NCBI GenBank assembly: GCA_002774355.1
Contig: PEYN01000025.1
Location: forward strand, 1 to 52,226
Direction of reading: 5' to 3'
From: Candidatus Marinimicrobia bacterium CG08_land_8_20_14_0_20_45_22
Lineage (GTDB): Bacteria; Fidelibacterota; UBA2242
Length of the DNA: 52,226 nt
Shown here: one piece after another, positions 1 through 5,632 of the stretch
Layout: each line of letters opens with the position of its first letter
Position numbering within the stretch: the stretch's first letter is position 1
Notes under the pieces: model-generated
Told to the model about the DNA's origin: nothing
The model's database searches: none
What the model saw: only the letters and a program-made list of their open reading frames with translations
Translations under genes and position numbers: made by a program

Positions 1-2123
1 CCGGCGTTTTTCTGAATTTCCAGCGTGCGCGCTTGTCTTTCACCATCAAGATTCAACATGCGGATGTCATTCTCGATGCCTTCTAAGCCTTTACCCGTGC
101 CGAGTTGGATGGTTTTCTTATCATCAAATGGATTTTCCCATTTCGCTATCAACCATGTCGTATCATCAATTTTCTCATCGGAAAAATCAATCCTGATCCA
201 GATATCCTGCGCAATATCACGATACTTTAACGAATTGAACAGCAATTCCTGAAAATATCCCTGAAGTAAGGCTTCGGCATAGCCATCCCGTCGCAAACGG
301 ATGGATTTCCAGAGCGGACTGAGCGTATATTCTATCTGACCAAGGTTGGCGCTGGCCCATTCGATGGCACTGCGATTGGGATTGAAGAAGACATTCTCTT
401 CAAAATCCGCTTTCAGTTGGTCTAAAGTCGTTCCCCACCGGGCGCAGATTTGCACGCGAATCAGTTCCAGTTTCCGGTCATCGGCGTTCAGGAAGCGGGC
501 GATGATGCGCTGAACGGAACCGTTCAGGATTTCCTCAATGCCAATGGCCTTTTCCTGAGCATCTTCCGGCAGACGATCACCGCGGATCAAACGCTGAAAT
601 TCCGCTGGATTGCCGGTATTACGTGCCTGCAGAAGCAAACCCTGATTGCGAATAATTGTCTCGGCAAGGTAAGCGTCGGTCAAAATGCGAGCGTCGCGAC
701 GGAATTCGATGTGACTCTTTAGGCGATTAGCTACCTCATAAATCGCATTCGGATAAAGCGTATTCGCTAATGTATGCGAATACTGCTGGATCATACGCTC
801 TTTTTCGCGACGATGATTTGCTTCTTGTTCAAGCTTATCTTTATTCTCTATCGCACTGATATTTTCCTGAAGAAGCTTATTCATATTCCGGCTAAGACCA
901 TAAAGGCAATTGATCGCGTAATTATTCTGATAAGATTTGATGACTTCTAAAGCAGATTGTTCTAGTTCTGAAATGAACTCTCCTTTATTATTTTTAAAAT
1001 CACTTATCAGATTTACTAGATAACCAGATAATAATTCGAAAAGGAAATTGATAATGATTGTTTTCAGACGTAAGTCATATAAAGGATTCTCTCTGACTTT
1101 TTCAAAATTCCGAATAGCCTCCTGTATATCGGGTACCAACTTTGGTTTCTTCGATTTAATTTTCTGGTTGTTTTCCGTTACTGCATCCAATTCTGACATT
1201 GATATAGAGTGGTCAATAGGACTAATTCGTAATTTTTCATTAAGCTCTTGGTTAAATATGGCATTTGTAAGTTCGGGAAATTCTTTAAGCACTGAATAGA
1301 ACCGACCATTTTGAATTACAAATCTGGTTAATCTTTTTTTATCTATTATGTCTTTATCTACTTCTGAAGATAGACTCTTAAGAAAATTTAAACAGCTCCT
1401 CAAAGTTGGAGATTTTTCCAAATTATCCTTGAGTGTGAAAACGATATCCAAAACCGGGAGTAAATGACGAATACTGATTTGATCGATTATATCTGCCACG
1501 CTTGAACTGTAGAAATTCTGGATTTCTTTGAGATTTGAGTATGCCTTTACGTCGTCACCTGTTTTGAAATAAAGGCAAACCAATTCATGCCATGGATAAA
1601 AAATATCCGCCCACCTCCCCTCGCCCTTCCCATATATTAATTGTTGAGGAAATCTTTCTGGATGCCAAATTGAAGTTTCCTCCGAACAGGTTATCATAGA
1701 TTTGAGTTTTTCAAAACATAATATAGCCTTCCGGTAATTGCCGTTTTTCTTGAAGTAATCTCCTAACTCACTAAAGTCGTATTCATACCAACTTTTAGCA
1801 GGAGTCTTTTCTCCCTTGAATAATAGATATTTATCATTTCCAAGCAAGTCAGTTTTTATTAAATCCTCAAAGGATTCATCTAATTTTCCAATTTTTTGAT
1901 ATGCATTACTTCTTTCATGATAAATTTTCCATAGCTGAGGAGAATTGGGTATGTTTTGAATAACAGTAGAGTAATCATCTATCGCTTTTTGATATTCTTC
2001 TAAAACTCGGAATAACAGTCCCCGTTCCCAGTAAAGATCTGCTGAATCCTGATTTTGTTCAATCCGGTCGGTTAGCGTCTTGATTTTATCTATTATTTTA
2101 TTTTTGTCTTCTGTCTTTGTCAT
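1..2123 (-). CDS. TPR-containing histidine-kinase-type ATPase, partial (C-terminus beyond left edge)
   Basis: Reading the minus strand from the ATG at 2123-2121 gives one uninterrupted frame of about 707 codons that reaches base 1 without a stop, so the gene is cut by the window edge. The first 200 residues or so contain TPR-like helical pairs (ADLYWERGLLF...YQKAIDDYS). A long central helical part without a recognised domain follows, then a coiled segment with a histidine in the context QQYSHTLANTLYP, resembling a phospho-acceptor H-box. Close to the edge an N-box-like LLFNSLKYRD and a G2-like GTGKGLEGI point to a HATPase_c (GHKL) fold. No membrane segment is seen, so a cytoplasmic ATPase or kinase is likely. 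The ribosome site AGGAAAC lies in the 10-base gap after the upstream helicase, so the two genes are probably co-translated. The N-terminal part is clearly more AT-rich than the ATPase end. Function and substrate are unknown. Confidence 0.75.
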   Translation of the reverse strand, partial: MTKTEDKNKIIDKIKTLTDRIEQNQDSADLYWERGLLFRVLEEYQKAIDDYSTVIQNIPNSPQLWKIYHERSNAYQKIGKLDESFEDLIKTDLLGNDKYLLFKGEKTPAKSWYEYDFSELGDYFKKNGNYRKAILCFEKLKSMITCSEETSIWHPERFPQQLIYGKGEGRWADIFYPWHELVCLYFKTGDDVKAYSNLKEIQNFYSSSVADIIDQISIRHLLPVLDIVFTLKDNLEKSPTLRSCLNFLKSLSSEVDKDIIDKKRLTRFVIQNGRFYSVLKEFPELTNAIFNQELNEKLRISPIDHSISMSELDAVTENNQKIKSKKPKLVPDIQEAIRNFEKVRENPLYDLRLKTIIINFLFELLSGYLVNLISDFKNNKGEFISELEQSALEVIKSYQNNYAINCLYGLSRNMNKLLQENISAIENKDKLEQEANHRREKERMIQQYSHTLANTLYPNAIYEVANRLKSHIEFRRDARILTDAYLAETIIRNQGLLLQARNTGNPAEFQRLIRGDRLPEDAQEKAIGIEEILNGSVQRIIARFLNADDRKLELIRVQICARWGTTLDQLKADFEENVFFNPNRSAIEWASANLGQIEYTLSPLWKSIRLRRDGYAEALLQGYFQELLFNSLKYRDIAQDIWIRIDFSDEKIDDTTWLIAKWENPFDDKKTIQLGTGKGLEGIENDIRMLNLDGERQARTLEIQKNA

Positions 2124-2133
2124 TGTTTCCTCA

Positions 2134-3666
2134 TTACTGAAGTGACTCAGCTTTCCTGGTAAAATTGGGTTGACTTAAACTATATACTTTTTTCTGAGCT
2201 CTTGTCAACGCTGTATAAGCCCACCTGAAATAAAATGGTGTATTGCGATTAAAGTTGGAACGGAAATCGACGATGACCTGTTCCCATTCGCCGCCTTGTG
2301 CTTTATGACACGTGATGGCATAGCCGTATTTGATGCGCAGACAGTTAAAATAGGAGTCGTGTTCAATCGCTTCTTTGAACTCCGGCGTATTTGGTTTCAA
2401 GTCGCGGTTGCGCTGTTTAAAGTCCACATACAAAGCTTGCAATTCCTCCGTTGTCAATTTCGGTTCGGCAGAGTTTAAAAGATTCATCAAAATTTTACAA
2501 TGAATATCTTTTGTAGTTCCGTTTTCAGATTCAAACCGAAGCGATACATTCCTGAAATAGAGAAGGATTTCAATTGGTTCACTGTTTTTCAAGATAGATA
2601 CTTTCCGTGATTCATTCTGTGGCGAGACATTGATAACTATCCCGAATTCGCCGTTCATCAGTTCAATTTCATGACTGTAATTGTTCTGCACGACGATGAT
2701 TCTGTCGCCAGTACATATTTCTTTTTCGTACCCCCAAAAACGATTTCTAACTGCTTGGTTATAATTGTTTACTGAGTAGTTCGTCAAAGTGATGATGATC
2801 GCATTGAATTTTTTTAAACCGTTGGTCAGTTCAATATACTTTGGTGCAACTGATGCTGTGGAAATTGGTAGGATATCCCTTTCGTTGGGAACAACCGACA
2901 GATCATAGAAATGTTGTTGATTGATATTTTCACGAATATGGGTAGCCGTTGCGAGGATACCGCTATCCTGGCATTGCCTTACCACTTCGCGCATTTCAAA
3001 TTCCTCTACCTGAGAGTGACAGGGCAAAGCTTCCAGATAATTTTTATCCAGTGCAGGGGACGTTTCCATATTTACCGGTGGAAGTTGAGCCGGGTCTCCA
3101 ATGAAAATAATCTTTCGCTTATTTCGGTTTCCTACATACTCTAAAAAATCATTCAGAAGAAATCCGGACCCATAGCGAAGGTAGCCACCATTGGCATATA
3201 GATTGGAAATCATCGATGCCTCATCCACTAAATAAACTGTGTCACCGGAATCTTCGCTTCTTCTGAGCGAATAGAAATATTTAATGCACTCAATTCCCAG
3301 CACATCCTGAGATTTATATTCACGCAGGTCAGCACGGGAGTAAATACTTTTATGAATCGTGTGTGCTGGAAGTCCCGTTTTTTCGGCAATGATTTTTGCG
3401 GCTCGCCCGGTTGGCACCATACATATAAAAGAAGTGCGGTTTTCATTCAGGTACTTGGATAATCCTTTTAACAATGTCGTTTTACCGGTACCGGCATAAC
3501 CTTTCAGGATAAAAATGTTGTTATCACTTTTTAAAAAAGATAGGAGATGACGAAATGCTTCTATCTGCGTGTTATTCAACCGAAAATCAAAGAAACGGGT
3601 GTTTTCCTGGCGAGACTGAACTTGGTTGAATTTGGTCGAATCGTTTTTCATACGCTCAATGAACAT
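2134..3666 (-). CDS. RecD-like superfamily 1 DNA helicase
   Basis: A 510-residue ATP-dependent helicase of the RecD/AAA_30 plus UvrD_C_2 type. Visible motifs are Walker A GYAGTGKTT (about residues 57-65), Walker B VDEAS (147-151), motif III GDPAQLPPV (about 190), the C-terminal CHKAQGGEW near 450 and YTALTRAQ near 490, which fits SF1B helicases that move 5'-3' on single strands. It lacks RecBCD partners and the long N-terminal OB/HhH region of RecD2. It is the first gene of a leftward two-gene operon with the TPR/HATPase gene 10 bases downstream. The pairing with a signalling-type ATPase suggests a special rather than housekeeping job, possibly defence or stress related, but this is inference. 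It starts about 260 bases from the divergent RHH gene. Confidence 0.88.
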   Translation of the reverse strand: MFIERMKNDSTKFNQVQSRQENTRFFDFRLNNTQIEAFRHLLSFLKSDNNIFILKGYAGTGKTTLLKGLSKYLNENRTSFICMVPTGRAAKIIAEKTGLPAHTIHKSIYSRADLREYKSQDVLGIECIKYFYSLRRSEDSGDTVYLVDEASMISNLYANGGYLRYGSGFLLNDFLEYVGNRNKRKIIFIGDPAQLPPVNMETSPALDKNYLEALPCHSQVEEFEMREVVRQCQDSGILATATHIRENINQQHFYDLSVVPNERDILPISTASVAPKYIELTNGLKKFNAIIITLTNYSVNNYNQAVRNRFWGYEKEICTGDRIIVVQNNYSHEIELMNGEFGIVINVSPQNESRKVSILKNSEPIEILLYFRNVSLRFESENGTTKDIHCKILMNLLNSAEPKLTTEELQALYVDFKQRNRDLKPNTPEFKEAIEHDSYFNCLRIKYGYAITCHKAQGGEWEQVIVDFRSNFNRNTPFYFRWAYTALTRAQKKVYSLSQPNFTRKAESLQ

Positions 3667-3806
3667 GCAGAGGAAGTGCCAAGAGTAAAAGAAAGGTAAA
3701 ATTTGAGTCGATTGTCGTCATGAATCAAACATAGATGAATGATAGTTAGAAATTCACATAGCATAAAGATCTTTACATCAGGAAATCAAAAACCTTACTC
3801 TTTCCT

Positions 3807-3847
3807 AACCTTGCAAATCGAAAGATAGCCTTTCAATTTGCAAGGTT
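3807..3847. repeat. 18-bp inverted repeat (hairpin) upstream of the RHH gene
   Basis: Bases 3807-3824 and 3830-3847 are complementary at 17 of 18 positions around a 5-base centre. Each arm begins with AACCTTGCAAAT. It lies between the divergent helicase and RHH genes, 83 bases before the RHH ATG. The right arm is followed by AATTTT, so it could be a terminator or attenuator; it could also be an operator for the adjacent DNA-binding protein, or a remnant of a small mobile element. Confidence 0.8.
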
Positions 3848-3929
3848 AATTTTCCAGAGGAACAGTCGTTCTATGCTTGGTGGGAAATCGGAAAGACCGT
3901 ATTTTCTAATCGTTTATACTGGAGAAAAG

Positions 3930-4142
3930 ATGAAAACCATAACTTTTAAAATTAGTGACGATTTATTCAGTGATATCAAATCATTAGCCCGGGAACTGGG
4001 CGAAAATCGCAGTTCTGTGATCCGTAGAGCCGTAAGATTTTATATTGATAGATATGATGAAGCCATCACAAAAATCAGGCTGGAAGACCCGGAAAGGATC
4101 ATGATCCCGCATGAAACGGTTTTGAAAGAATTTGGTCTCTGA
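3930..4142 (+). CDS. Ribbon-helix-helix DNA-binding protein (CopG/antitoxin-like)
   Basis: A 70-residue protein. I start it at the ATG at 3930 rather than at 3873, because GGAG lies 5 bases upstream and because the N-terminus then begins directly with the expected beta strand (MKTITFKISDDLF). A helix-turn-helix-like pair (LARELGENRSSVIRRAVRFYI) follows, as in CopG/NikR/antitoxin RHH proteins. These bind DNA as dimers, usually at palindromes, and often repress their own operon. No toxin gene is adjacent: the next gene converges on it. It may be an orphan antitoxin or a stand-alone regulator acting on the large inverted repeat just upstream. Confidence 0.75.
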   Translation: MKTITFKISDDLFSDIKSLARELGENRSSVIRRAVRFYIDRYDEAITKIRLEDPERIMIPHETVLKEFGL

Positions 4143-4171: not shown

Positions 4172-5632
4172 TTAATTTGTCTTGATTCCCAATTTTCGCA
4201 GTCGGGCGCGGAAGGTCGCGGGCGGAATGCCAATCAATTGCGCGGCGGCGGTGGCATTGCCATTAGTCTGTTTGAGCGCCGCGCGGTAATAGTCCGGAAT
4301 TAATCCATTATCGAAATCGATTCCCTCGGCAGGAATGATAATTCCCACCGGTGAATCGGTCAGTTCAACGATGTGCAAATGCTCGGCGGTTATTTCTTCG
4401 CCAGGATAGACGAACGCGGCGGAGATGGAACTTTTCAACTGTCGGACATTACCAGGCCATTGATATGCCTGAATCTTGGCAATTGCCGACTGCATCAGGT
4501 TTTTGCGCTTGTCCTGTATGTGATTGAGTGAATCCACTATGTGTTGAGCGATCAATATTTTATCTTCACCGCGTTCGCGCAATGGCGGAAGATAAATTTC
4601 CGTCTGAACCAACCGAAAGAACAGGTCTTTACGGAATTGATGGTCTTTGACCAATTGACGGAGGTCGCGATTGGTAGCAGAAATGATACGAACGTCCACC
4701 TTTTCTTCCTTACCGCCGACGACCTGAATCGTTCCTTGATCCAAAAAGCGGAGCAATTTGACCTGCATATCGGGCGGCAGATCGCCAATTTCATCGAGAA
4801 AAATGGAACCACCATCAGCGAGTTTGAATTTGCCTTCCTTATCCGAAATTGCACCGGTAAAACTGCCCTTCTTGTGTCCGAAAAATTCACTCTCGAACAA
4901 CTGCGGACTAATCGCGCCACAGTTAATTCTGATAAATGGTTGTTTATTGCGCGGACTATTAAAATGAATAGCGCCTGCGACAAGTTCTTTGCCGACGCCG
5001 GTTTCACCGCTGATAAAAATCGGTAAGTCGCTCTCAGCAAACAGGCGAATTTGTTCCTTGACTTTTCGGATTGCCACCGATTCGCCAATGATTGCATTCA
5101 AACTGGTTGAAACCTGTCGGCGGAGCAGTTTATTTTCGCGGGTGAGTTGTGTTAACGCGGCTTTTGCTTCGGTGACATTTTGGATTTTCGGAAAGTCATC
5201 CAAATTGAAATTGATCTCTGAGAGTCCTGTTTCACGATGGATTTGAATTAATTTTGCATTGATGACGCCACCCTGTTGCAGGAAAATCCAGCAGGCGTGC
5301 ATGGTTGGTGTCCCGGAAGTTACCGAAATGGTAAATTCGGCGTCGGGATTCTCTTTGACAATCAATTTAACTGCCTGATACATTGCCGGATAAACAGTGT
5401 TATAGTCAGTTGGATTGACGGAGAGTGCTGGTTGATAACGAACTTGTATAGCAGGAAAACGCTGACGGCAATATTCCAGAATAGCAGAAGCCGGTTTTAA
5501 ATAGGATTCGTCGTTGTACAGCAGATAAAGGCAATTAAAAATCCGCTCATGCAAAGCGGCGATGATCGCTCCGGGCTTTTCGGGCAGTTGGCAGTCATTA
5601 TTTCCAACAAAGGATAACAAGACACGATTCAT
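4172..5632 (-). CDS. CARF-domain sigma54-dependent activator (RtcR-like)
   Basis: A 486-residue regulator. The N-terminal 150 residues look like a CARF-type Rossmann sensor: SFVGNND at the start and VTSGTPTMHACWIFL at about 104-118, matching the layout of the RtcR N-terminus. A short helical linker follows, then a complete AAA+ sigma54-activator domain: Walker A GETGVGKE (209-216), GSFTGA loop (256-261), Walker B FLDE (278-281) and arginine-rich sensor segments. The end (about 447-486) is a Fis-type helix-turn-helix (NGNATAAAQLIGIPPATFRARL). RtcR activates RNA-repair genes (rtcBA) when its CARF domain senses RNA-derived ligands, and CARF domains elsewhere sense cyclic oligonucleotides. No rtcA, rtcB, Cas gene or CRISPR array lies in this window, so its targets are unknown. 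It converges with the RHH gene. Confidence 0.88.
   Translation of the reverse strand: MNRVLLSFVGNNDCQLPEKPGAIIAALHERIFNCLYLLYNDESYLKPASAILEYCRQRFPAIQVRYQPALSVNPTDYNTVYPAMYQAVKLIVKENPDAEFTISVTSGTPTMHACWIFLQQGGVINAKLIQIHRETGLSEINFNLDDFPKIQNVTEAKAALTQLTRENKLLRRQVSTSLNAIIGESVAIRKVKEQIRLFAESDLPIFISGETGVGKELVAGAIHFNSPRNKQPFIRINCGAISPQLFESEFFGHKKGSFTGAISDKEGKFKLADGGSIFLDEIGDLPPDMQVKLLRFLDQGTIQVVGGKEEKVDVRIISATNRDLRQLVKDHQFRKDLFFRLVQTEIYLPPLRERGEDKILIAQHIVDSLNHIQDKRKNLMQSAIAKIQAYQWPGNVRQLKSSISAAFVYPGEEITAEHLHIVELTDSPVGIIIPAEGIDFDNGLIPDYYRAALKQTNGNATAAAQLIGIPPATFRARLRKLGIKTN

Follow-up and report, generated by a model that had tools for sequence, protein, structure and literature searches.

Sigma-54 activators with a CARF domain are known from the head of defence operons. 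RtcR-like CARF activators accompany R-M systems (PMC4012209) and head the CoCoNuT superoperons, where RNA fragments with a cyclic phosphate were suggested as the ligand (PMC11090510). The CARF domain of RtcR binds tRNA halves with a 2',3'-cyclic phosphate, and bacterial RtcR responds to tRNA halves associated with DNA damage (PMC7790460). In PADLOC, the helicase family PDC-M16A is a candidate phage-defence family, the A component of PDC-M16 (helicase A and partner B). Detocs is reportedly a defensive two-component system that combines a kinase with a receiver-domain effector and is said to use a PNP effector and a phosphate-sink receiver. A figure of predicted systems from DefensePredictor lists the domains TPR, HATPase and REC. 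Here we describe a locus in which a CARF activator precedes a helicase and a TPR-GHKL protein; while activators of this type at the head of defence operons are already known, we could not find such a cargo described in the literature searched.

The window analysed (G000:C25:1-52226; 52,226 nucleotides) is a whole contig from the phylum Candidatus Neomarinimicrobiota, which leaves no room for the leftward extension proposed in an earlier note. Both cargo genes are on the minus strand at the left edge of the contig, the helicase gene at 2134-3666 and the TPR-GHKL gene at 3-2123, separated by a gap of 10 bases. That note, made from the sequence alone, had reported this gap and a second gene running off the contig, and the ORF is indeed open at the contig end. 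The note omitted the activator gene at 4172-5632 (minus strand), the sigma-54 promoter at 3682-3666 and the operator at 3762-3799; the functional unit is predicted to reach to about 5632. The GC content is 39.6% in the cargo, 46.5% in the activator and 45.6% in the remaining window. The note had also proposed looking for a defence island, and here the outcome was unfavourable: the neighbouring ORFs in the window are housekeeping-like (sugar epimerase, kinase, glycogen synthase) with no evident defence island, which counts against a defence reading.

The activator belongs to the RtcR_PspF2 family and matches the PADLOC model PDLC01995 over its full length (428 bits, 2-481/481). Pfam recognises Sigma54_activat (7e-65) and HTH_8, a profile of the CARF region finds Csm6 structures (6tug, E=8e-10), and all three domains (CARF, sigma54 AAA+ and HTH) are found in one chain. 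The architecture and the sigma-54 control are those of RtcR of the rtcBA RNA-repair operon, but neither rtcA nor rtcB is present among the adjoining ORFs and the score to the NCBIfam RtcR model, 286 bits, falls short of its cut-off of 650. As in the defence superoperons headed by RtcR homologues and associated with CoCoNuT or R-M (PMC11090510, PMC4012209), the CARF-AAA-HTH activator comes first and defence-type cargo follows in the same direction, whereas the cargo of the window is a PDC-M16A helicase with a TPR-GHKL protein and includes no McrBC/CoCoNuT or R-M genes. The G000 genome encodes RpoN.

The helicase proved to be RecD-like, as the earlier note had claimed: its SF1B motifs are intact by reading and alignment, Pfam detects AAA_30 (5e-26) and UvrD_C_2 (3e-14), and the RecD2 model scores 144 bits, under the cut-off of 500 of that equivalog. 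PADLOC identifies it as a strong PDC-M16A member (616 bits). The idea of an uncharacterised system for defence or DNA damage holds up. The helicase alone is not new, because PADLOC already lists PDC-M16A among candidate defence genes. The gene had been assigned a start at 3666; the ATG at 3651 is probably the true one, because 3666 falls inside the -12 element of the putative sigma-54 promoter and the homologue in G221 (L008:6294-8447) begins at the equivalent codon. The helicase family also pairs with PDC-M16B, tightly so in L010 by PADLOC, and a similar layout suggests PDC-M16-type pairing in L053. The window differs from PDC-M16 in its partner protein, in the attached CARF activator and in the helicase itself, which in alignment lacks the C-terminal extension of ~210 aa found in its relatives.

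The second gene encodes a cytoplasmic TPR and DHp/GHKL (histidine-kinase-like) protein, of which 707 aa are readable and, by comparison with L008, the C-terminal ~45 residues are lost at the contig end. Its N-terminal TPR repeats exceed the Pfam cut-offs; the H-box/GHKL region gave no Pfam match, HATPase included, and is backed by invariant residues, a profile alignment and a low-confidence model. Three diverged homologues share the invariant positions H450, E626-L627, N630 and K633 of the N-box and G675-x-G-x-G679-L of the G-box, within the common motifs QQYxHTLxNTLxPN, ExLxFNxLKY (N-box) and GxGKGL or GxGLGL (G-box). The GHKL core is 57% identical to the G221 homologue. Related proteins of G219 and G211 match HisKA and HATPase_c_5 weakly, both below cut-off, and profile comparison aligns the His, N-box and G-box of these kinases collinearly with the window family (E=0.0012, with a probability of only 19%). 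The AlphaFold model is shallow and of low confidence (mean pLDDT 43, ~70-80 across much of 530-660), and its best PDB matches, mostly DHp-CA histidine kinases, reach E=0.0066 at best with none below E=0.001. From sequence and model, we read the product as a soluble histidine-kinase-like protein. The GHKL profile had no hits among PDB sequences, the family had no match in the viral contigs, plasmids or phages searched, and the protein had no PADLOC hit and hence none to PDC-M16B. Scanning the genome contigs with the GHKL profile gave only two loci, both already known, and the helicase protein search of the genome contig collection returned no loci; the scan of the all-species collection was pattern-based and distant relatives may escape it. 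Where TPRs would stand, the G221 GHKL protein instead has EYDxIMKD units, nearly identical and arrayed over a long stretch (L008:8575-9009).

Between the activator and the helicase, the minus strand carries a putative sigma-54 -24/-12 promoter, TTGGCACTTCCTCTGCA, at 3666-3682 (reading 3682-3666), 14 nt upstream of the ATG at 3651. Of all sigma-54 matches on the two strands of the window, it is the best, and 0/300 shuffles of the region matched. Sigma-54-like promoters were also found between the activator and the first cargo gene in L009 (0/300 shuffles), L050 (p 0.013) and, weakly, L008 (p 0.09), the last with a promoter-to-ATG spacing, read by eye, of 15 nt against the 14 nt of the window. 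A candidate enhancer or operator (UAS) is located at 3762-3799 on the same strand and consists of a 16-bp palindrome at 3762-3777 and a degenerate copy 22 bp away. In the relatives L008, L050, L052 and L017, two 16-bp palindromes CGTAAAnATnTTTACG lie 22 bp apart ahead of the cargo. The exact pattern, with no mismatch allowed, is absent from G000, and because the copy in the window departs from the consensus at two positions the operator claim rests on matrix ranking. The matrix, derived from eight palindrome copies of these four loci with the window excluded, gave 3762 the top score of the 52 kb, 16.7 bits with 13.7 for the runner-up, and for the 22-bp pair the window site was far first (21.9 bits, next 9.4). 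An exact-pattern search of whole genomes returned few sites, the G219, G221 and G211 loci among them. We predict that 3762-3799 and 3682-3666 are the operator and the sigma-54 promoter controlling the helicase-kinase operon. Antisense between activator and cargo, a ribbon-helix-helix gene of CopG type (3873-4142, plus strand; RHH_1, 3e-7) has a homologue in L017 and none in L008, L050 or L052; it may encode a regulator or be what is left of an antitoxin. Some 25 bases upstream of its start, a near-perfect 19-bp inverted repeat with a 5-nt loop (3806-3848), whose sole mismatch reads as G-U in the minus strand, may serve as its operator or form a hairpin; the repeat is partly kept in L017, and the homology between the window and L017 ends inside it.

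The locus was compared across 245 Neomarinimicrobiota genomes, which are fragmented MAGs, so that missing downstream genes mean little. CARF domains are present in 11 of these genomes. GHKL loci of the window type occur in three and of the L050 type in two, and all five adjoin the activator on the same strand. The earlier note held that its reading would fail if helicase and kinase were not conserved together; the pair does recur, in G221 (L008), with the same activator, the same order and a gap of 8 bases, and it was seen in these two genomes only. Elsewhere the activator is followed by a 282-aa protein, GHKL and a receiver-like gene with no helicase (G183, L009), by TPR-GHKL and a receiver-like gene (G219, L050), by a membrane protein, TPR-GHKL and a broken receiver-like gene (G211, L052), or by a TPR gene that the contig end truncates (G212, L017); G111 (L081) instead has three genes, recognised by reading, one of them PIN-type and toxin-like. 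Hence the pair remains an operon but is not the core of the system: the GHKL protein occurs without the helicase in L009, the helicase occurs with M16B in L010 and, judging by the layout, in L053, and the CARF-sigma54 activator is constant. The activator with the GHKL kinase is a stronger unit than the helicase-kinase pair.

The loci of G221 and G219 (L008 and L050) are 90.4% identical in DNA over 5.65 kb up to the activator 3' end, beyond which the alignment is limited to ~59 bp, the operator region (79.7%), and the genes are wholly different, helicase and kinase in G221, TPR-kinase and receiver in G219. Because near-identity to the end of the activator gives way to different cargo with only the operator in common, the cargo appears swappable, and the loci are most simply read as a conserved switch of activator and operator with exchanged payloads. 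L052 and L050 have in common the operator and activator (87%) and, the TPR part excluded, the kinase C-terminus with the receiver start (94%), and the window and L017 share the activator and the RHH gene (73%), with homology ending at 3811. G221 and G219 thus amount to a natural swap experiment with a single switch and two payloads, and two copies of CGTAAAnATnTTTACG 22 bp apart offer a handle for finding more cargo of the CARF switch. For the RtcR-headed type, operator and cargo swapping are worked out in the present analysis.

In L050 and L009 the kinase gene is immediately followed by a receiver-like gene, as it is in L052, where that gene is broken. By reading, the receiver-like proteins have an acidic pair, a central Asp and a Thr (in L050 also a Lys), and Pfam calls none of them. 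Searching G000 with the L050 receiver found nothing, the L050 and L009 receivers themselves being very different, and a PDB sequence search with the receiver also found nothing. For the receiver-like protein of 517 aa, a structure model was set aside (mean pLDDT 38), and no HEPN RNase tail is claimed for the receiver protein of L009, as RNWTSH is a short-motif resemblance only. Past the receiver-like gene and two small genes, L009:1-2970 encodes a histidine-kinase-like protein that contains repeats and an ABC/SMC-like ATPase that weakly matches several defence ATPases.

We favour, with some confidence, an inducible cassette, probably of an anti-phage or nucleic-acid-damage response, in which cargo is exchanged between genomes on a conserved platform of activator and operator; its likeliest purpose would be defence. 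By analogy with RtcR, the CARF domain would bind an RNA-damage or oligonucleotide ligand made during infection and the AAA+ domain would then oligomerise. Bound to the tandem palindrome, a site found ~80 bp upstream, the activator would open the promoter at 3682-3666 and switch on the helicase-kinase operon. The helicase may engage foreign or damaged DNA ends, sensing or processing DNA, while the soluble TPR-GHKL protein, triggered via its TPR domain, may phosphorylate a receiver-domain effector. From L050 and L009, the effector gene is expected beyond the contig end, and because the contig ends there it was not seen at the locus. More tentatively, and with doubt prevailing, this may be a new infection-induced two-component immunity in which the CARF-sigma54 switch and tandem operator serve as a plug-in platform for exchangeable cargo and a soluble TPR kinase, either alone or alongside a helicase sensor, phosphorylates a receiver effector that stops infected cells. 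The logic of kinase and receiver effector, as it may exist in L050 and L009, is that of Detocs; compared by description, not sequence, the locus differs in that no purine nucleoside phosphorylase effector was seen and in that a CARF activator and a helicase are present. One transcriptional circuit would join CARF ligand sensing and histidine-kinase signalling, ideas usually kept apart, and if defence is confirmed the kinase-based alarm would be synthesised only after a damage signal.

The main rival is a stress regulon for DNA or RNA damage, in which CARF senses host tRNA or RNA damage like RtcR, and helicase and kinase repair or signal irrespective of phage. The response of bacterial RtcR to DNA-damage-associated tRNA halves (PMC7790460) and the suitability of a RecD2-like helicase for repair speak for it. 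We nevertheless consider it rather unlikely, as the activator family is tied to restriction or conflict operons on plasmids and in published work (PMC11090510, PMC4012209), the cargo is patchy and swapped, unlike core repair, and rtcA/rtcB were not seen in the ORFs beside the activator. The pairing of helicase and TPR-GHKL protein could alternatively be a PDC-M16 variant, the GHKL protein merely replacing PDC-M16B and its kinase being a degenerate ATPase without phosphotransfer. The score of 616 bits to PDC-M16A, the tight pair with M16B in L010, the like layout of L053 and the TPR repeats of the window partner are what such a variant would have, but that partner has no M16B hit, its family also occurs without a helicase beside a receiver-like gene (L009) and His450 is invariant, so that this account is improbable. 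That activator, helicase and kinase are chance neighbours with no functional link is very improbable because of the operator and adjacency data: operator and sigma-54 promoter are correctly placed, G221 keeps the same order, and 5/5 GHKL loci adjoin an activator that only 11/245 genomes have, against which stand the antisense RHH gene between activator and helicase and the presence of the exact trio in two genomes only.

The activator also has relatives on plasmids, the closest of which share 32-36% identity with it. Those of L054, L055 and L058 precede type I R-M operons, as does that of L059 with an apparently broken one, and those of L056 and L057 precede vWA-PP2C-kinase-AAA operons. Sigma-54-like promoters lie in the corresponding position in L054, L055, L056 and L058 (p ≤0.003). 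On an Aureispira plasmid (L060), a CARF-sigma54 activator gene and a neighbouring type III-B (Cmr) CRISPR operon point in opposite, divergent directions, and unknown genes lie downstream. Furthermore, a similar palindrome, AGTAAAAATAGTTACG, lies just 5' of the Vibrio plasmid activator gene (L058:8970-8985), which possibly reflects autoregulation.
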